Part shown: positions 1,744-10,832 of the stretch, piece by piece
Layout: each line of letters opens with the position of its first letter
Position numbering within the stretch: the first letter of the stretch is position 1
Assembly: GCA_913061495.1 (NCBI GenBank)
Contig: CAJXVG010000009.1
Span: 1-34,742, forward strand
Reading direction: 5' to 3'
DNA: 34,742 nucleotides
Source: an uncultured Winogradskyella sp.
Lineage (GTDB): Bacteria > Bacteroidota > Bacteroidia > Flavobacteriales > Flavobacteriaceae
Notes under the pieces: model-generated
Seen by the model: the letters and a program-made list of their open reading frames with translations, nothing else
Told to the model about the DNA's origin: nothing
Database searches by the model: none
Position numbers and translations under genes: made by a program

Positions 1744-2861
1744 TATTCTTCAGCTTTTTCGTCATCAATAAGTCCGAGGCGTTTGGCACGTACTTCCCAA
1801 CTGCGTCTAGCCAATAACTGAAGATCCGATACATTATCGCTTTCGTCCATAATTTCAAGACCAAGTAGTGTTTCAATAACATCTTCCATAGTTACTAGGC
1901 CACTTACAGAGCCGTACTCATCAACAACTAAAGCCATATGGTTTCGGCTTTCAACTAATTGTTCAAATAACTTCGGAATAGGAATACTTCGGTTAACGAT
2001 TATGATACTTCGTTTAATTTCGGATAAGAGCTTATCTCCATTACCAAGTCCCATTTCCTTAAATACTTCATCTTTTAAGACCAAACCTGTAATATTGTCG
2101 GCATTTTTGGTGTAAACAGGAATTCTTGAAAAACGAATATTAGAATTTTCTTCAAAGAAATCTCTCACGGTCATATTTTCATCTTCGGCTTTCATAACTG
2201 TTCTGGGAGTCATAATATCCTTAGCCAAAACTTCTTTAAAGTTTAGCAAGTTTTTAATGACCTTACTTTCGTTTTCCTCAAAAACACCTTCCTCATGGGC
2301 AATATCTGCCATGGCCGAAAAACTTTCCCGAGTTAAAATACTACCATGACCAGTGCCACCAATGAGCTTTGTGGTGAGTTGAAGTATCCATAAAATTCCT
2401 GTATATTTTAATGGAAAGATTAAGATATTAAGCGCTTTTGAACAAAAATTAGCCAATTTCTTCCAATAGGTTGCTCCAATGGTTTTTGGGATAATTTCTG
2501 AAGCTACTAAGATTAAGATTGTCATAATGGTAGAAACTAAACCAACCATTATATCTTCCGTAAAATTAATACCTAAAACGGTCCGTTGCGTACTGCCGTA
2601 AAGTTCTGCATAAGCTACTTTGGCTTGTACACCAACTAATATTGCACCTACGGTATGTGCAATAGTATTTAAAGTTAGAATAGCAATTAACGGACGATCT
2701 ACATCTTTTTTTAAGGCTTCTAAATTTTCTGCATAACTTTTTCCCTCTTTCTTTTTGAGATTAATAAACGTTGGAGTGATGCTAAGCAATACAGCTTCTA
2801 AAATAGAACATAAAAATGAAAAGAAAATTGAAATTATGGCGTAGAAAATGAGTAAGCCCAT
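1743..2861 (-). CDS. CNNM-domain (DUF21) membrane protein with CBS pair
   Basis: A 372-aa integral membrane protein of the CNNM/CorC (HlyC-like) family, associated with Mg2+/Co2+ homeostasis. The N-terminal DUF21 domain has about four hydrophobic segments (roughly 1-27, 57-80, 103-125 and 135-160). A cytoplasmic CBS pair follows (about 200-340, starting near KDIMTPR and including VDEYGSVSGLVTMEDVIE). The C-terminal CorC_HlyC domain of longer relatives is absent; the protein ends shortly after the second CBS domain. It is not GldE, which carries that extra domain. It lies 29 bases downstream of hemB and overlaps ogt by one base. Confidence 0.88.
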   Translation of the reverse strand: MGLLIFYAIISIFFSFLCSILEAVLLSITPTFINLKKKEGKSYAENLEALKKDVDRPLIAILTLNTIAHTVGAILVGVQAKVAYAELYGSTQRTVLGINFTEDIMVGLVSTIMTILILVASEIIPKTIGATYWKKLANFCSKALNILIFPLKYTGILWILQLTTKLIGGTGHGSILTRESFSAMADIAHEEGVFEENESKVIKNLLNFKEVLAKDIMTPRTVMKAEDENMTVRDFFEENSNIRFSRIPVYTKNADNITGLVLKDEVFKEMGLGNGDKLLSEIKRSIIIVNRSIPIPKLFEQLVESRNHMALVVDEYGSVSGLVTMEDVIETLLGLEIMDESDNVSDLQLLARRSWEVRAKRLGLIDDEKAEE

Positions 2862-2890
2862 TTATTTTTTTGGTTTAAGTTGTTACGAAG

Positions 2891-3880
2891 TTACGAAATC
2901 AATTTTACAACGTCCTTAGCAAAATAGCTTGCAATAATATCTGCACCAGCTCGCTTAATAGAAGTGACTTGTTCCAACATAACAGAATCATGGTCTAACC
3001 ATCCTTTTTCAGCTGCTGCTTTTAGCATGGCATATTCACCTGAAACTTGATAAACAGCTAATGGAACATCAAAAGTATTTTTAATGTCGCGAACAATATC
3101 CAAATAACACAAACCGGGTTTTACCATAACAATATCGGCTCCTTCGTTGATGTCCATTTCGGTTTCCTTAATAGCTTCATCTCTATTGGCAAAGTCCATT
3201 TGGTAGGTTTTTTTATCTTTTGGCACATCTACAATATCTACAGGTGCGGAATCCAAAGCATCTCTAAAAGGACCGTAAAATGCCGAAGCATATTTTGCAG
3301 AGTAACTCATAATGCCAACATCAATTAAGTTAGATTGGTCTAATGCTTCACGAATTCCTAATATTCTACCATCCATCATATCGCTTGGTGCAACGAAATT
3401 AGCGCCAGCTTCTGCGTGTGAAATACTCATTTCGGCTAAGACTTCAACAGTAGCATCGTTTATTATTTTTCCGTTTTCAATTATGCCATCATGTCCGTAA
3501 GATGAAAATGGATCTAAAGCCACATCTGTCATTACCAACATATCAGGGCAAACTTCTTTTACGGTTTTTATGGCACGCTGCATTAATCCGTTTTGGTTTA
3601 AAGCTTCGGTTCCTTTATTGTCTTTTAAGTTATCGTCAACTTTAACAAATAGCAAAACTGATTTTAAGCCCAAGTTCCATAAAGTTTTTACTTCATCTTT
3701 TAGTAGATCCAAGCTATAACGGTAATAATTGGGCATTGAGGTAATTTCTTCCTTAATGCCTTTACCTTCAACTATAAAAAGAGGTACCAAAAAGTCGTTT
3801 GGAGTGATATAAGTTTCTCTTACGAGACTCCGGATAGCTTCGTTGGTTCTTAGTCTTCTATTTCTTCTAATTGGAAACAT
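2891..3880 (-). CDS. hemB: Porphobilinogen synthase (delta-aminolevulinate dehydratase)
   Basis: A 329-aa cytoplasmic enzyme that condenses two 5-aminolevulinate molecules into porphobilinogen. The two Schiff-base lysines are visible in SAKYASAFYGPFRDA (Lys196) and in VMVKPG (Lys254). The metal-site segment reads ALDPFSSYGHDG (about 121-132), without the three-cysteine zinc cluster of animal and yeast enzymes, so a Mg2+-type or zinc-independent enzyme is expected. It lies downstream of hemF in the leftward hem operon, separated by a 52-base gap of AAAGTTA-like repeats. Confidence 0.97.
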   Translation of the reverse strand: MFPIRRNRRLRTNEAIRSLVRETYITPNDFLVPLFIVEGKGIKEEITSMPNYYRYSLDLLKDEVKTLWNLGLKSVLLFVKVDDNLKDNKGTEALNQNGLMQRAIKTVKEVCPDMLVMTDVALDPFSSYGHDGIIENGKIINDATVEVLAEMSISHAEAGANFVAPSDMMDGRILGIREALDQSNLIDVGIMSYSAKYASAFYGPFRDALDSAPVDIVDVPKDKKTYQMDFANRDEAIKETEMDINEGADIVMVKPGLCYLDIVRDIKNTFDVPLAVYQVSGEYAMLKAAAEKGWLDHDSVMLEQVTSIKRAGADIIASYFAKDVVKLIS

Positions 3881-3881
3881 A

Positions 3882-3921
3882 ATTTAAAGTTATAAGTTAA
3901 AAGTATAAAGTTACAAGTTGC
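3882..3921. repeat. Imperfect AAAGTTA-type tandem repeat between hemF and hemB
   Basis: The intergenic stretch consists of short imperfect units such as AAAGTTATAAGTT, AAAAGTATAAAGTT and ACAAGTT. Similar runs are common between genes in Bacteroidota. No function can be read from it; it may be simple slippage-derived filler. Confidence 0.5.
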
Positions 3922-3932
3922 TTACTCTAACT

Positions 3933-4916
3933 CTACACCCATTCTTTTGGATTCTGTAATACCTGTATTAATCGTTTTTCTTCACTACCTTTTTCTGCTT
4001 GATGGTCATAAACCCATTGCACATGTGGAGGTAAACTCATAAGGATGCTTTCTATTCGTCCATTGGTTTTTAACCCAAATAAAGTGCCTTTGTCATGGAC
4101 TAAGTTAAATTCCACATAACGACCACGGCGTATTTCTTGCCAATCGCGTTGCTGTTTTGTGTAATCTAAAGGTTTTCTTTTTTCAACAATTGGAACATAG
4201 GCTTCAAGAAAACTATCACCAACTTCGGTAACAAAATCGTACCAGTTTTGCATAGTCATATCCTCTGTAGCTTTACAATAATCAAAGAACAAACCGCCTA
4301 TACCACGACCTTCATTTCTATGTGCATTGTAAAAATACTCGTCACAACGTGCTTTATATTTTGGATAAAACTCAGGGTTGTGTTTGTCACAAGCTGTTTT
4401 ACAGGTTTGGTGAAAGTGCTTGGCATCTTCGTCAAAAAGATAGTAAGGCGTTAAATCTTGTCCACCTCCAAACCATTGATCTACGATGTTTCCTTTTTGG
4501 TCATACATTTCAAAATAGCGCCAATTGGCATGCACTGTTGGCACCATTGGGTTCTGTGGGTGCAATACTAAACTTAATCCACAGGCAAAAAAATCGGCAT
4601 CCTCTACGCCAAAATATTTCTGCATGCTGTCTGGGAGTTTTCCGTGAACACCAGAAATGTTAACTCCTCCTTTTTCAAAAACATTACCGTTTTCGATAAC
4701 ACGCGTTTTTCCGCCGCCACCTTGGGGTCGTTTCCAAATATCCTCTTTAAATTTTGCTTTGCCATCGATGGCTTCGAGTTTAGAGGTTATAGTGTCTTGT
4801 AAATCGTGTATGTAATTGAAGAATTTATCCTTTATAGACCTCGCAGGTTTTAAAAACCTAGCAGGTCTGTCTAAAATATCAAAGTCAGACTCAAAAATTT
4901 CTGAAATATTACTCAT
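3933..4916 (-). CDS. hemF: Alternative HemF product from an internal ATG
   Basis: This is the same frame as the RAYT-HemF ORF but starting at the last in-frame ATG before the HemF domain (4916-4914, residue 171 of the fusion). An AGGA stretch lies eight bases upstream. The product would be 327 aa: about 15 residues from the RAYT C-terminus, 12 encoded by the REP, then complete HemF. Start choice is an inference. No ATG occurs at the usual HemF start, where the codon is ATA (4833-4835). Confidence 0.45.
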   Translation of the reverse strand: MSNISEIFESDFDILDRPARFLKPARSIKDKFFNYIHDLQDTITSKLEAIDGKAKFKEDIWKRPQGGGGKTRVIENGNVFEKGGVNISGVHGKLPDSMQKYFGVEDADFFACGLSLVLHPQNPMVPTVHANWRYFEMYDQKGNIVDQWFGGGQDLTPYYLFDEDAKHFHQTCKTACDKHNPEFYPKYKARCDEYFYNAHRNEGRGIGGLFFDYCKATEDMTMQNWYDFVTEVGDSFLEAYVPIVEKRKPLDYTKQQRDWQEIRRGRYVEFNLVHDKGTLFGLKTNGRIESILMSLPPHVQWVYDHQAEKGSEEKRLIQVLQNPKEWV

Positions 4917-5426
4917 ATGTGAGGTCCTAAAGTTTTTCAAATCATCAAAAAGACTAACAACGTAATCTTTACTGTGCTGGGATATTATTCTTGATTTTGA
5001 AAAATATGATCTGTAAGAGGAATATTCATACGTTTCAAAATCTTCAACAATTTTATGGTTTTCAGGATTTTTGTGAATATATAAAATGAGTTTTTTTAGG
5101 TAATCTTCATCCTCGATTCTTTTTCTCTTAAATGGTCTTTCCAGCAAAGCTCCAGTTCTAGAATTTTGTTTATTATAAGCTTTTGTGTAAGCATTAAATA
5201 AATTTGAAAACGCTTGATTCACTTCTTTTGTTTCAGCAGCAACTTCAACTGCAAAATGAAAATGATTGTTGAGTAGGCAGTAGGAGAGAATATTGATTTT
5301 AGGTAAAAGGTATTTCTCTACTAGTTTCAAAAAATAAGACATATTATCTCCATTTTTGAAAATCACAGTACTGTCTATGCCTCTGTTATATATGTGATAA
5401 TAATGTCCTTTTTCTAATTTTTCCAT
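3933..5426 (-). CDS. hemF: RAYT (REP-associated Y1 transposase) fused in frame to oxygen-dependent coproporphyrinogen III oxidase HemF
   Basis: One uninterrupted 497-codon frame joins two unrelated proteins. Residues 1 to about 185 are a REP-associated tyrosine transposase (IS200-like Y1 fold): HIYNRG near the N-terminus, the HUH metal motif as HFH (His55, His57), and the probable catalytic Tyr116 in YIHKNP. Residues 186-197 are encoded by a palindromic REP element. Residues 198-497 are a full-length HemF (300 aa), which oxidatively decarboxylates coproporphyrinogen III to protoporphyrinogen IX; GGGGKTRVIENG, NEGRGIGGLFFDY and the GRYVEFNLVHDKGT segment are intact. Codon 198, where related HemF proteins start with Met before KDKF, is ATA. 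An internal ATG at 4916 (residue 171) could give a separate 327-aa HemF with a 27-residue leader. Whether the cell makes the fusion, the shorter HemF, or both is not decidable from sequence. The operon position between acetyltransferase and hemB supports HemF as the functional product. Confidence 0.93.
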   Translation of the reverse strand: MEKLEKGHYYHIYNRGIDSTVIFKNGDNMSYFLKLVEKYLLPKINILSYCLLNNHFHFAVEVAAETKEVNQAFSNLFNAYTKAYNKQNSRTGALLERPFKRKRIEDEDYLKKLILYIHKNPENHKIVEDFETYEYSSYRSYFSKSRIISQHSKDYVVSLFDDLKNFRTSHMSNISEIFESDFDILDRPARFLKPARSIKDKFFNYIHDLQDTITSKLEAIDGKAKFKEDIWKRPQGGGGKTRVIENGNVFEKGGVNISGVHGKLPDSMQKYFGVEDADFFACGLSLVLHPQNPMVPTVHANWRYFEMYDQKGNIVDQWFGGGQDLTPYYLFDEDAKHFHQTCKTACDKHNPEFYPKYKARCDEYFYNAHRNEGRGIGGLFFDYCKATEDMTMQNWYDFVTEVGDSFLEAYVPIVEKRKPLDYTKQQRDWQEIRRGRYVEFNLVHDKGTLFGLKTNGRIESILMSLPPHVQWVYDHQAEKGSEEKRLIQVLQNPKEWV

Positions 5427-5504
5427 TTTTTGATTTACGAGTTTCTGAAAAACTTTATAGATTTTTAGTTTTCAGACCTGCGAGGTTTTTAAAACCTGCT
5501 AGGT
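4833..5504 (-). mobile_element. RAYT/REP cassette inserted in the hem operon
   Basis: The inferred inserted segment (672 bases) comprises REP B, a short spacer, the RAYT coding region and REP A. Joining the flanks GAAAGATG and AAGGATAAA restores an AGA-TGA stop for the acetyltransferase that overlaps an ATG-AAG-GAT start for HemF. This is a typical four-base ATGA operon overlap. No target duplication is seen, as expected for Y1 transposases. A nine-base word CTTTATAGA occurs both at the right junction (4830-4838) and inside the cassette (5453-5461). Exact boundaries are inferred and could differ by a few bases. Confidence 0.7.
4837..4869 (-). repeat. REP palindrome, copy A (inside the RAYT-HemF frame)
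   Basis: A 33-base imperfect palindrome. On the minus strand the arms are AGACCTGCTAGGTTTT and a partner differing from a perfect match only in the three central bases, as in REP hairpins with an internal bulge. It matches copy B (5473-5505), read on the opposite strand, at 31 of 33 positions. It encodes the linker RPARFLKPARS of the fusion and ends one codon before the HemF domain. Confidence 0.9.
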
Positions 5505-5505
5505 C
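5473..5505 (+). repeat. REP palindrome, copy B (upstream of RAYT)
   Basis: A 33-base imperfect palindrome beginning CAGACCTGCGAGG on the plus strand, in inverted orientation relative to copy A. The two copies bracket the RAYT gene, the usual arrangement of a RAYT with its cognate REPs. Its left edge on the minus strand coincides with the TGA stop of the acetyltransferase (5504-5506), so the palindrome abuts and partly forms that stop codon. Confidence 0.9.
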
Positions 5506-6043
5506 ATCTTTCATTATATAATTCATAAAGTTCCATATCCAAAGCCATTTCGTTTGGTGGTGTATATTCGTTCAAAAGGGTTTTCTGCCACTTAAAACCA
5601 TTATTTGTAGCCACTTTCACACTCGATAAATTATCTTTATGAGTAATAATTTGAAGTGTTTGCAAGCCTAATTTTTCAAACGCATATCTTGATAGTGCCT
5701 TGATTGCTTTAGAAATTAAACCTTTACCTTCAAAAGTATAGCCTATGGCATATGCAAATTCACCTTGTTTTTTATCCCAATCGAGTTCCTTTAAATAAAT
5801 CAACCCAGCGAGCTCTCTTGTTTCAGATTGTTTCAAAGTGAACAAAAATTCTTCCTTGTTCTCAAACTGTTTCACTTTTGTTTCAACAAACAATTGCGAT
5901 AATGTTGGGTTTAAGTTTTGTTCTAATGTCTTTGGAAAATAACGTTTCAATCGGTCTGAATTCGCCACACAGAAATCACATATTTTCCAAGCGTCACCGT
6001 TATGAACCGGACTGATTTCAAAACCATTGAACTGAGCTAGCAT
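5504..6043 (-). CDS. GNAT-family N-acetyltransferase (RimJ/RimL type)
   Basis: A 179-aa cytoplasmic acyltransferase. The GNAT core is recognisable: the central strand segment ELAGLIYLKEL, the acetyl-CoA pyrophosphate loop around FEGKGLISKAIKAL (about 108-122), and NLSSVKVATNNGFKW near the C-terminus. It resembles RimJ/RimL-like enzymes that acetylate protein N-termini or small amines, but the substrate is unknown. Its start overlaps the end of the upstream EI24-like gene by seven bases, and its stop is merged with REP copy B. Confidence 0.85.
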   Translation of the reverse strand: MLAQFNGFEISPVHNGDAWKICDFCVANSDRLKRYFPKTLEQNLNPTLSQLFVETKVKQFENKEEFLFTLKQSETRELAGLIYLKELDWDKKQGEFAYAIGYTFEGKGLISKAIKALSRYAFEKLGLQTLQIITHKDNLSSVKVATNNGFKWQKTLLNEYTPPNEMALDMELYELYNER

Positions 6044-6906: not shown

Positions 6907-7968
6907 CTATTCTTTATATTCCTTCACCGCATCAATAAACGCCTTAGCATTTTCCAACGGAATATTAGGCAAAATACCATGACCTAAATTTACGATGTAT
7001 TTATCTTTCCCAAACTCATTAATCATTTGAGTCACCATTTTTTTGATTTCAGATGGAGGTGAAAATAAACGCGTAGGGTCAAAATTACCTTGTAATGTAA
7101 TATTTCCTCCTGTTAAATAGCGTGCATTTTTTGGGGAACACGTCCAATCTACTCCTAAAGCAGAAGCTCCGGATTTAGCCATTTTATCTAAAGCAAACCA
7201 ACAGCCTTTGCCAAATGCAATAACTGGTGCATCGTCTTTTAAAGCATCAATGATTTGCTGAATGTATTGCCATGAAAACTCTTGGTAATCTACAGGAGAT
7301 AGCATGCCTCCCCAAGAATCAAAAACTTGGACAGCGTTACAGCCTGCTTTTACTTTTTCTTTTAAATATGCAATTGTTGTATCTGTAATTTTTTGAAGTA
7401 AGGTGTGCGCTGCGATCGGATTGGTAAAACAGAATTCCTTAGCTTTATCAAAATTCTTAGAACCTTGGCCTTGCACGCAATAGCAAAGAATCGTCCATGG
7501 AGAACCTGCAAAACCGATCAATGGAATTTCATCACTGAGCTTTTCCTTTGTCGCTTTTATGGCCTGATATACGTAATTCAGTTCTTTTTTTACATCTGGA
7601 ACAATAACATTATCTACATCTTTTTGAGAACGAACAGGGTTTGGCAAATAAGGCCCAAAATTAGGTTTCATCTGCACCTCAATATTCATCGCCTGGGGAA
7701 TTACCAAAATATCCGAAAACAGAATTGCAGCATCCATACCATATCTGCGAATAGGCTGAACCGTAATTTCACTGGCTAATTCTGGCGTTTGGCAACGTGT
7801 AAAGAAATCATACTTTTTTTTGATTTCCATAAACTCAGGTAAATATCTACCTGCTTGGCGCATCATCCAAACTGGAGGACGCTCTACCGTTTCACCTTTT
7901 AATGCTCTTAAGAATAAATCGTTTTTAATGCCTGCGGAAGCAGGTATCTCTTTGTTTTTGTTCTCCAT
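6907..7968 (-). CDS. hemE: Uroporphyrinogen decarboxylase
   Basis: A 353-aa cytoplasmic enzyme converting uroporphyrinogen III to coproporphyrinogen III. Family landmarks are [17 protein letters not shown] (about 30-46, the substrate-binding Arg loop), [11 protein letters not shown] (catalytic Asp region) and [11 protein letters not shown] near the C-terminus. Relatives normally begin with Met-(Ile/Leu)-Lys-Asn-Asp-Leu-Phe. Here that segment is preceded by a 13-residue extension ([13 protein letters not shown]), most of which is encoded by a palindromic repeat, and the expected Met is replaced by Gly. The only nearby in-frame ATG is at 7968. The enzyme core is intact. Confidence 0.96.
7928..7947. 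repeat. Palindromic repeat inside the 5' end of hemE
   Basis: A 20-base hairpin with arms ATGCCTGC and GCAGGTAT (one mismatch) around the loop GGAA. It is translated in frame as part of IPASAGI. It belongs to the same family as the copy at 7978-7997. Confidence 0.8.
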
Positions 7969-7977
7969 ATGTCTGTC

Positions 7978-7997
7978 ATTCCTGCGCAGGCAGGAAT
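7978..7997. repeat. Palindromic repeat between hemCD and hemE
   Basis: A perfect 8-base inverted repeat, ATTCCTGC and GCAGGAAT, around the loop GCAG. It lies in the 43-base gap between the hemCD stop and the hemE start, 30 bases from the related copy within hemE. Hairpins of this consensus (CCTGC loop GCAGG) are widespread interspersed repeats in Bacteroidota. It could also act as an RNA hairpin at the operon junction. Confidence 0.85.
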
Positions 7998-8011
7998 CTG
8001 TTTTAATTCAT

Positions 8012-9589
8012 TTACCCGTAATGTTCATTTACCAATTCAATAACACTTTCTGCTAAAGGCACTTTTGCGACACGCACATCTCCAAAATGTTTTCTTGCTT
8101 CATTTGCTGTGGTTTCACCAATACAAAATGCAATGCCATTTGCTTTGTTTTCCTTTAAAAAAGCATCAACTGTTGATGGACTAAAAAACATAACTCCATC
8201 TAAATCGTTTTCAATTTTATCAGCGTCAAACTTTGTTTCGTAGGCTTGGACTTCGTTTACTTTAATATTATTTTCTGAAAGAATTCTGGGAATGGTGTCT
8301 AACCTTATGTTGCTACAAAAATAAGTAGCTTCAGTACCATCCATAAATTCAACCAGGTGTTGTGCCAAGTTTTCAGCTGAGCCAGCTTGGTGTTTTACTT
8401 TACCTATTCGTTTCTCAATCATGCGTTTGGTTTTTCGTCCTACGCAATAGATGTTTTTGAACTGCAACTCAGGAGCTGAGAAATTGTGCAATAACGCTTC
8501 AACTGCATTTTTACTCGTAATGATAACGTTTTCAATTTCATTTCGAATTATACTTTTTGTTAAGCGGTTTGGGTTAATTTTAATAGCGTCTGTGCTTTCA
8601 GCAACCACATCATTATTAAATAACTGTAATTGATCTATGGTTAATTTTTTGGTTGAATATATATTGGTTGTTTTTTCACTACGTAATAATTGGTCAATTA
8701 GGGTTTTACCACCTTTTCCAATAACATAATCCGCACAAAACTTTGCTATATTTTCATGTTTACCTAAAGGTTCAATTTTAGTTACTTCTATTTTTTTAGA
8801 TCCATCTTTACTTAAAAGTATTCCTTTAAAATTGACTTCTTCGTCTTTTATGTATGCCAAAGCACCAATGGGAGCTGTACATCCACCTTCAAGTCTATTT
8901 AAAAACTCACGTTCTATTGATGTTGAGATTTCAGTTTCTTCATGATTGATTTCAGCACAAGCAGCCTTAATTTCTTCGTCGTTCTCCATGGCAGCAACCA
9001 TAATAGCTCCTTGAGCGGGAGCCGGAATCATCCAATGGAGATTGATTGCGTTTTCTGGCGTTAAGTTTAAACGTCCTATACCAGCACCTGCAAAAATAGC
9101 CGCATCCCAATCTTCATTGTCTTCAAGTTTTTGAAGCCTAGAAATCACGTTGCCTCGTAAACCAACAACACTATGGGTTGGGTACCTATTTAACCATTGA
9201 GCTCGTCGTCTTAAACTTCCAGTAGCTATTATAGCATCTTTAGCGGATAAAAACTCTTCATTTTTTTTAAACACTAAAGTATCGTTAACGTTGCCACGCT
9301 TTAGAACAGCAGCTTGTACAATACCTTTTGGTAAAATAGTAGGAACATCTTTAAGTGAATGTACTGCAATATCAATACTTCCGTTAAGCATTGCAATATC
9401 TAAGGTTTTAGTGAAAATCCCTGTGATACCAAGCTCATATAAAGGCTTGTCCAAGACTAAATCTCCTGTAGATTTAACAGGAACCAAAACGGTTTTATGT
9501 CCTAGATTTTCGAGTTGAATCTGGACGGTTTTTGCTTGCCACATAGCGAGCTGGCTGTCGCGTGTGCCAATGCGAATTATTTTAGACAT
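8012..9589 (-). CDS. hemCD: Bifunctional hydroxymethylbilane synthase / uroporphyrinogen-III synthase (HemC-HemD fusion)
   Basis: A 525-aa fusion. The N-terminal half (about 1-305) is HemC, which polymerises four porphobilinogens. It starts with IRIGTRDSQLAMWQA, contains HSLKDVPT and GSLRRRAQ, and carries the dipyrromethane-cofactor cysteine in EGGCTAPIGA (Cys237). The C-terminal half (about 310-525) is a divergent HemD that cyclises hydroxymethylbilane with D-ring inversion; recognisable parts are NVIITSKNAVEALL, FCSNIRLDTIP and VMFFSPSTVDAF. The start overlaps the end of hemA by eight bases. Fusion would channel the unstable tetrapyrrole directly. Confidence 0.95.
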   Translation of the reverse strand: MSKIIRIGTRDSQLAMWQAKTVQIQLENLGHKTVLVPVKSTGDLVLDKPLYELGITGIFTKTLDIAMLNGSIDIAVHSLKDVPTILPKGIVQAAVLKRGNVNDTLVFKKNEEFLSAKDAIIATGSLRRRAQWLNRYPTHSVVGLRGNVISRLQKLEDNEDWDAAIFAGAGIGRLNLTPENAINLHWMIPAPAQGAIMVAAMENDEEIKAACAEINHEETEISTSIEREFLNRLEGGCTAPIGALAYIKDEEVNFKGILLSKDGSKKIEVTKIEPLGKHENIAKFCADYVIGKGGKTLIDQLLRSEKTTNIYSTKKLTIDQLQLFNNDVVAESTDAIKINPNRLTKSIIRNEIENVIITSKNAVEALLHNFSAPELQFKNIYCVGRKTKRMIEKRIGKVKHQAGSAENLAQHLVEFMDGTEATYFCSNIRLDTIPRILSENNIKVNEVQAYETKFDADKIENDLDGVMFFSPSTVDAFLKENKANGIAFCIGETTANEARKHFGDVRVAKVPLAESVIELVNEHYG

Positions 9590-10832
9590 TATCTGTGGTT
9601 TCTAACTGAAAAATTTTTTTGATGAGCTCTATACTCTCATCTGAAGTGTTGCCATCTTCCCTTAAATGATGCGCAAACTGATTGGTAATTTTCTGAATAA
9701 TATTTGACGTAATCAATTCTGCTTGATCTTCATTAAAATCGGCTATTTTTTTACGTTGCGTGTTTAATTCAGAGTTTTTAAAATCGGTCAGTTTATGTTT
9801 TATGGCCTGTATTGTTGGCACAAATTTTAAGGTATCTAACCATGCGTTAAATTCATTCGTAATTTCAGAAATGATAACTTCTGCATGTGGAATGAAAGCC
9901 TTACGATTCTCTAAGGTGTCATCTGTTATTTTTGCTAAATCATCTAAGTGAATCAACGTTACATTTTCTAATTCCTTAATGTCTTCATTTACATTTTTTG
10001 GAATTGATAAATCGAGAACCAACAGTGGTTTTTTAGTTGAAATTAGAGATTTATAAACTGTAGGATTTTGAGCTCCCGTGGCAACAATAACAACGTCTGA
10101 TGCATCTATTTCAGCTTCTAGATTATTGTAATCTTTAACTATGAGGTTAAACTTTCCGGCAACTGCTTCAGCTTTATCTTTTGTTCTGTTGATTAATGTA
10201 ATATGCGGATTTTTGGTATGCTTCACTAGATTCTCACAGGTGTTTCTTCCAATTTTTCCGGTTCCAAAAAGCAAAATGTTCTTCTCTGAAATAGATTCAA
10301 CATTATTCATTATATATTGCACCGAAGCAAAAGAAACTGAGGTGGCACCAGATGATAATTCTGTTTCGTTTTTGATGCGCTTACTGGCCTGAATAACAGA
10401 GTTTACCAAGCGTTCCATAAAAGAATTGAGCAAGTCTTCTTTTTTAGAGGCTCTTGCACTAAATTTAAGTTGACTTATTATTTCAAAATCACCAAGAATT
10501 TGAGAATCTAAACCAGAGCCAACACGAAACATGTGATTTATTGCTTCTTTATTTTTGTGAACATAAGCCACCTCTTGAAATTCTTCAACCGTTCCTTTGG
10601 TATTTTCGCAAAGCAGTTGAATAAGTTGATATGGATGTTCTGCAAAGCCGTAAAGTTCTGTTCGGTTACATGTAGAAATAACTACAACGCTTTCAATACC
10701 GCTGTTTTTGGCTTGAGTTAAAAGGTCTTGTTTGGCAGTGTCACTTAAGCTAAAATGACCACGAACTTCCGCATCAGCTTTTTTGTAACTGAGACCTATA
10801 GCGTAAAAATATGTGCTTTTATGTTGTTGCAT
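9582..10832 (-). CDS. hemA: Glutamyl-tRNA reductase
   Basis: A 416-aa enzyme for the first step of the C5 heme pathway: NADPH-dependent reduction of glutamyl-tRNA(Glu) to glutamate-1-semialdehyde. The catalytic cysteine lies in VVISTCNRTELYG (Cys55), followed by GSGLDSQILGDFEI. The NADPH-binding motif reads LLFGTGKIGRNTCENL, and a helical dimerisation domain ends the protein. It is the first gene of the leftward hem operon, and the 201-base gap to the divergent AraC gene should hold its promoter. Confidence 0.97.
   Translation of the reverse strand: MQQHKSTYFYAIGLSYKKADAEVRGHFSLSDTAKQDLLTQAKNSGIESVVVISTCNRTELYGFAEHPYQLIQLLCENTKGTVEEFQEVAYVHKNKEAINHMFRVGSGLDSQILGDFEIISQLKFSARASKKEDLLNSFMERLVNSVIQASKRIKNETELSSGATSVSFASVQYIMNNVESISEKNILLFGTGKIGRNTCENLVKHTKNPHITLINRTKDKAEAVAGKFNLIVKDYNNLEAEIDASDVVIVATGAQNPTVYKSLISTKKPLLVLDLSIPKNVNEDIKELENVTLIHLDDLAKITDDTLENRKAFIPHAEVIISEITNEFNAWLDTLKFVPTIQAIKHKLTDFKNSELNTQRKKIADFNEDQAELITSNIIQKITNQFAHHLREDGNTSDESIELIKKIFQLETTDNV

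Follow-up and report, generated by a model that had tools for sequence, protein, structure and literature searches.

Inteins and homing endonucleases place a DNA-mobility enzyme in frame with a conserved gene, are patchily distributed and are exchanged. Rickettsial palindromic elements add a short peptide. They resemble the locus described here in that a palindromic repeat is translated in frame, as with the REPs inside genes treated in the available part of PMC3733652. The RAYT (TnpA-REP) systems, including the REPtron, are described in the available parts of PMC2817692 and PMC3733652. There, an HUH-Y1 transposase gene lies between two inverted REPs, and the genome holds more REPs elsewhere. 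Two subclasses of TnpA-Y1 were also counted among the closest known systems. REPs often lie inside the tnpA-REP gene in subclass 2.4, whereas subclass 2.6, found mainly in Bacteroidetes, has the motif YIH[QN]NP and flanking structures that are not typical (PMC6006769, in part). A few proteins that were longer than expected were discarded in the same survey as "gene fusions or annotation errors", and its main text has no word starting with "heme". RAYTs are described as single-copy, vertically inherited domesticated transposases, and what keeps them in genomes and their role in the cell are described as unknown (PMC8049555, in part). Among the papers listed in a search of the open-access literature, there was no account of a RAYT–HemF fusion.

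We analyzed a stretch of 34,742 nt from an uncultured Winogradskyella sp. (contig CAJXVG010000009.1), referred to as the window. The first-pass annotation, which gave no strand, had reported a single 497-codon frame joining a RAYT to a complete HemF. This was confirmed, and the frame runs on the minus strand from 5426 to 3933 (Table 1). Similar to the case of the described RAYTs and REPtrons, the RAYT of the window has an inverted REP on each side. A difference is that those RAYTs are separate genes, whereas here the RAYT lacks a stop codon of its own, and its frame runs on through a coding 3' REP into HemF. hemB lies on one side of the fusion; the GNAT gene, an EI24-family gene, hemE, hemC–hemD and hemA lie on the other side. 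HemC and HemD are encoded in one 525-aa frame (window 8012–9589, minus strand).

Table 1. Features of the RAYT–HemF locus (window positions)
Feature	Position	Strand or side	Basis
RAYT–HemF fusion gene, 497 aa	3933..5426	-	single ORF from ATG to stop; domain matches; full-length homologous frames
RAYT (TnpA-REP) part, residues 1–170	4917..5426	-	NF047646 match below cut-off; conservation; 4er8 fold match
HFH motif, residues 55–57	5264..5256	-	RAYT part
Tyr116	5081..5079	-	RAYT part
Linker, residues 171–198	4833..4916	-	in-frame Met171; pLDDT <50 at 175–196
HemF part, residues 199–497, oxygen-dependent coproporphyrinogen oxidase	3936..4832	-	Pfam, NCBIfam, Foldseek
3' REP palindrome, in-frame translation RPARFLKPARS	4837..4867	.	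31 nt; junction at about residues 187–197
5' REP palindrome, inverted relative to 3' REP	5475..5505	.	just 5' of the RAYT gene
ATGAAAGAT, G038-type hemF start stranded upstream of cassette	5506..5514	-	comparison with L204 (G038)
ATAAAGGAT, diverged second copy of ATGAAAGAT	4827-4835	right flank of cassette	comparison with L204 (G038)
GNAT acetyltransferase gene	5504..6043	-	frequent upstream neighbour of hemF; 3' end meets 5' REP
hemB, next heme-cluster gene	2891..3880	-	neighbour annotation
hemE, hemC–hemD fusion and hemA, rest of heme cluster	6907..10832	-	neighbour annotation

The HemF part was a full-length family match. The NCBIfam model for oxygen-dependent coproporphyrinogen oxidase (NF003727) matched residues 201–496 with 421.6 bits (cut-off 297), and the sole Pfam match on the fusion protein was Coprogen_oxidas (PF01218) at residues 203–496, covering model positions 3–295 of 295. 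For the RAYT part, REP_Tyr_transpos (NF047646, NCBIfam) matched residues 42–136 with 44.9 bits, which is under its curated cut-off of 80 bits. That cut-off was exceeded by any match in only 4 of the 60 genus genomes, and for RAYTs of this group the model is possibly too strict. The HFH motif and Tyr116, both named by the first-pass annotation, supply the HUH motif and the catalytic tyrosine of the Y1 family. After removal of three duplicates, 40 distinct fused proteins were collected; L131, L137 and L141, whose RAYTs were broken or short, had been removed by the length filter. His57 and Tyr116 were invariant in all 40, and His55 was kept in 39.

An AlphaFold model of the fusion was used for a Foldseek search. 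Ranks 1–19 were coproporphyrinogen oxidases. Rank 20, above the IS608 and ISDra2 chains, was 4er8_A (E 9.8e-6), a RAYT with its REP hairpin; by this match the predicted N-terminal part has a RAYT fold. The model was moderate (pLDDT 73.7, pTM 0.51). The two-domain identity and the in-frame joining were supported, and the fusion protein is presumably made and functional. In being in frame with HemF, this RAYT departs from the usual description as a separate single-domain gene, which is no criterion of catalysis. No intein splicing domain was found in the Pfam and NCBIfam scans of the fusion, and no N-extein precedes the element, which is itself N-terminal. Unlike inteins, it does without splicing and is an N-terminal module that supplies the start codon.

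The two window REPs have 33-nt arms that are 94% complementary and lie 603 nt apart. The palindromes had no match in 100 shuffles. The 81 nt around the 3' REP were predicted to form a stable RNA hairpin (z −3.4). Of 28 fused loci scanned with a strict pattern, 9 showed both REP copies, the window among them, and diverged copies were visible in many others. A translated REP or REP remnant was present in the linkers of all 40 fused proteins. The linker REPs differed in frame and version (RPARFEKPARS, DLSGFENLTG, DLQGFENLAG), some linkers held at least two consecutively, and a few linkers were degenerate or shortened (for example L004, L076 and L078). Unlike in Rickettsial palindromic elements, a whole transposase accompanies the repeat here and takes over the start. 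The REP linker had escaped the first-pass annotation, as had two further features that emerged from the comparisons below: a RAYT lineage confined to the heme operon in this sample, and cassette exchange between species.

The codon at the usual HemF start position in the window is ATA (Ile198, 4835..4833), which the first-pass annotation had also missed. In 23 of the 40 fusions the native HemF ATG was replaced, by ACC, ATA, ATC, CTC, GTA, GTC, GTT or TTT, none of which normally serves as a start. Between His170 and HemF, 22 of these 23 had no ATG and 20 had no ATG, GTG or TTG; 14 had no ATG after codon 60. For the 20 fusions with none of the three codons in this interval, the chimera is the simplest product. 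Fused strains without an internal start include Algibacter pacificus H164 and Hanstruepera flava NBU2984. The native ATG was kept in the other 17 fusions, for example in Winogradskyella psychrotolerans, and HemF alone could be made there. These include 10 of the 11 group-A cassettes, with the window as the exception (three genus cassette groups, A, B and C, were named from the RAYT tree). The window has an in-frame ATG at Met171, which is a possible internal start.

The unfused hemF loci of the genus (L174–L211) were read for comparison. At the usual place, 18 of the 38 had TTG and 14 had ATG, and 3 had an ATG two codons earlier. The genes with TTG mostly start right after the GNAT stop codon, which suggests coupled translation. 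The remaining three loci (G020, G050 and G037) had a displaced HemF start and a cassette scar. One REP is left in each of G020 and G050; G037 has a decayed RAYT tail, and the first in-frame ATG for HemF is now within it. As displaced starts were confined to scar loci, a shift of the HemF start by more than two codons is, in the genus sample, associated with a cassette that is or was there. The link is not absolute, since outside this sample the unfused loci L045 and L061 had displaced HemF starts and showed no REP in a pattern scan, for which they were not turned to the gene strand.

HemF might instead be made alone by internal initiation, at the native ATG, at Met171 in the window, or at some non-standard codon (ATA, ATC or GTC, for example), with the open RAYT–REP frame being incidental. 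The 17 native ATGs, Met171 of the window and the ATG in the former RAYT tail of G037 are in line with this, and the apparent use of TTG in 18 of 38 unfused genes indicates that start codons are labile here. Nevertheless, half of the fusions (20 of 40) lack both the native ATG and any ATG, GTG or TTG from His170 to HemF, and an incidental frame is unlikely to be open in 40 proteins whose linkers (from His170 to HemF) vary from 19 to 51 codons, with cassettes swapped at the same joint. We consider internal initiation unlikely as an account of the locus. It remains the main rival for the 17 fusions with a native ATG.

The first-pass annotation had called hemF an essential heme gene. It is a heme gene, but its essentiality has to be qualified, as the window genome also has HemN over the curated cut-off. 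HemN was over the cut-off in 50 of the 60 genus genomes, that of the window included, so HemF is not always indispensable. No HemN was over the cut-off in the fused genomes G011 and G043.

A tree of 82 RAYTs was built from the 40 fused RAYTs, 11 unfused ones beside heme genes, and 31 others from the family and order searches; L216, the stand-alone RAYTs of the genus and many weaker or partial RAYT matches were outside it. All 51 heme-locus RAYTs fell into one clade (support 100/99), and none of the 31 others was inside. Among the RAYTs compared, this lineage thus appears only at the heme operon. The 11 unfused members of the clade were located at several joints of the heme cluster: hemCD/hemE, hemE/hemF, or directly before hemF. 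Many stand-alone RAYTs whose 3' flank was inspected had their own stop codon, followed by a palindrome. In L111 and L115, the RAYT reads through the REP and stops at or within a few nucleotides of the hemF ATG; they are natural intermediates between the adjacent and the fused states. The fused state required five changes on the RAYT tree, and three to four of the changes were forced by well-supported branches. One gain with reversals and several gains are therefore both possible.

A single, vertically inherited fusion gene was rejected, because the HemF and RAYT histories conflict. On the HemF tree, cassette type required 10 changes, versus a mean of 9.6 for shuffled labels, and cassettes appear to assort independently of the HemF to which they are joined. 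By the AU test, holding group A (p 7e-31) or group C (p 4e-6) together as a HemF clade was rejected. The dS between L014 and L016 was 0.03 for the RAYT versus 1.00 for HemF, and between L009 and L010 it was 0.07 versus 0.37. For L014 and L016, identity per 60-nt step was 93–100% over a stretch that begins ahead of the 5' REP and reaches some tens of nucleotides into hemF, and 80–95% over the rest of hemF; the drop lies no more than about 60 nt from the start of hemF. L002 and L020 had HemF parts that were 95.9% identical and RAYT parts that were 58.8% identical. L018 and L019 also differed (RAYT dS 0.02, HemF dS 0.29), but they are not a clean case of exchange, as their upstream flank is also 90–100% identical. 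Such exchange at hemF differs from the vertical inheritance of RAYTs portrayed in the available part of PMC8049555.

By reading, L017, L018 and L019 were found to have repeats resembling another cassette type before the present cassette. In L011, a fragment of another RAYT (G017:C22:60748-60906) lies directly upstream of the intact fused RAYT, and it is possibly a trace of cassette turnover.

The sister of the window HemF on the HemF tree was that of the unfused G038 (support 100/99). This unfused sister and the G038-type start on the left of the cassette (Table 1) suggest that the window lineage gained the cassette. Larger target duplications are not made by known IS200/IS605 members (PMC2817692, in part). 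The 9-nt duplication in the window is unexpected for an insertion of this type, and recombination or repair may have taken part.

We think it probable, on the sequence comparisons above, that a REP–RAYT–REP cassette resident in the heme operon and exchanged between species captures the hemF start codon. The cassette would have settled between the GNAT gene and hemF and given hemF its start codon and frame. Translation from the RAYT ATG through the 3' REP, acting as a flexible linker, would produce a chimera in which RAYT and HemF fold separately. The native HemF start would then be free to decay, and loss or frameshift of the RAYT afterwards would cost the cell its HemF. Homologous recombination in the GNAT and hemF flanks, possibly helped by RAYT activity at the REPs, would be the probable means of transfer between species, and in-frame products would be retained because HemF is needed. 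The anatomy, the recurrence, the missing native HemF start of many fusions, the purifying selection, the cassette exchange and the restriction of this lineage to the heme operon among the RAYTs compared are all read from sequence. Both halves are presumably active, and we infer that dependence on HemF is the reason why the cassette persists. The idea of the first-pass annotation that expression of a heme gene may be tied to a transposase gained support, and the fusion recurs in 16 of the 237 genus codes of the family sample.

Some observations argue against start capture. If cells depended on the cassette, losses should be few, but the fused state required 10 changes on the HemF tree of 60 genomes, and most sampled family genomes are without the fusion. 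In addition, the RAYT was lost or decayed and the HemF start displaced in G020, G050 and G037. Whether capture serves as a persistence strategy is a more tentative matter. A heme-dedicated lineage that spreads between species as an exchangeable N-terminal cassette would, as the only start of a core enzyme, be hard to lose while still being an active REP transposase; we regard this as possible rather than probable. If true, persistence by start capture would be a splicing-free counterpart of inteins.

In a number of marine Flavobacteriaceae, a transposase module that is intact and exchangeable is joined in frame to the front of hemF. About half of the examined fusions are without the usual HemF start, and the transposase appears to have taken over the start of a gene of core metabolism. 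A mobile-element module has been repeatedly joined to the same core gene, and the palindrome of the element has become a protein linker. The mechanism of RAYT persistence may be legible here, as the transposase would form the N-terminal part of a translated heme enzyme. Cases with, without and with scars of the cassette occur in one genus and make its gain, exchange and loss directly testable.

Selection on the two parts was compared in pairs of fusions. In the 10 pairs, of 13 tried, whose RAYT dS was at least 0.39, the dN/dS of the RAYT part was 0.05–0.19, and that of HemF in the same pairs was 0.02–0.06. The RAYT part is thus under purifying selection. The short linker was mostly far less constrained, with a dN/dS from 0.2 to more than 1 where computable. 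Three pairs with a RAYT dS below 0.1 gave unstable dN/dS values of 0.22–0.56, and the L001/L007 pair was saturated (dS 2.9).

REP sites were counted in the genus genomes. The median was 23 in fused genomes (n = 22; 21 after subtracting two each) and 1 in unfused genomes (n = 38). The difference had a p of 6e-9, uncorrected for phylogeny; a tree-aware comparison had only 5 pairs and was without power. Some unfused genomes also had many REP sites (28 in G033, 15 in G018, and 10 each in G037 and G038). The fused RAYT was the only RAYT-model match in 17 of the 22 fused genomes. The window genome had only 4 REP sites, and the fusion gene was its one match. REP activity of the fused RAYT is no more than plausible. 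The complete, fused genome G010 had four further RAYT matches and 54 REP sites, the highest number among the 60.

The first-pass annotation had proposed a search for the same architecture in other flavobacterial genomes, and the fusion was found to recur in both the genus and the family samples. Among the 60 genus genomes, 22 had a full-length open fusion frame, two of them one-contig assemblies (G010 and G027); among the 397 family genomes there were 17, spanning the 16 genus codes. It was also present in 12 of 45 loci in named genome contigs, with the titles Winogradskyella, Flavivirga, Algibacter, Hanstruepera and Polaribacter. Besides that of the window, 15 genus codes had the fusion, and in 11 of them a sampled congener was without it. 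Outside Flavobacteriaceae, no fusion was found among the 40 matches listed for a 170-aa RAYT query against 246 order genomes.

The RAYT might also have been domesticated by the host for its own benefit. For example, it might bind its own REP hairpin in mRNA or DNA and tune hemF, or HemF might control the nuclease. Purifying selection on the RAYT, the REP hairpin in the predicted transcript directly before HemF, and the fact that all compared members of the lineage sit at the heme operon fit with this, and the extreme C-terminus of E. coli TnpA-REP has been suggested to be regulatory (PMC8266576, in part). However, the fusion is absent in 380 of the 397 family genomes, including the congeners just mentioned. 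Its patchiness and the cassette turnover suit an exchangeable element better than a host function that has become fixed, and we rate domestication as improbable, somewhat more so than internal initiation. An assembly error, contamination or a chance open frame, which the fragmented window assembly (301 contigs) might suggest, was ruled out for practical purposes by homologous frames in independent assemblies, with 40 distinct fused proteins and several of them from the one-contig genomes G010, G027, G226, G306 and G403.

A generic read-through of RAYTs into any neighbour was also considered and rejected. In the family sample, all 17 matches with open frames of 490–553 aa were HemF fusions. Only one frame in the family RAYT search was longer than 553 aa, and it is a distant match unrelated to HemF. 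At this locus (L171, G282:C16:4000-11000, positions 2618-5692), a RAYT-like N-terminus lies in a frame of about 1025–1029 aa with a PIF1-like helicase, HRDC and HTH_40, and the RAYT-like part shared 29% identity over residues 3–141.
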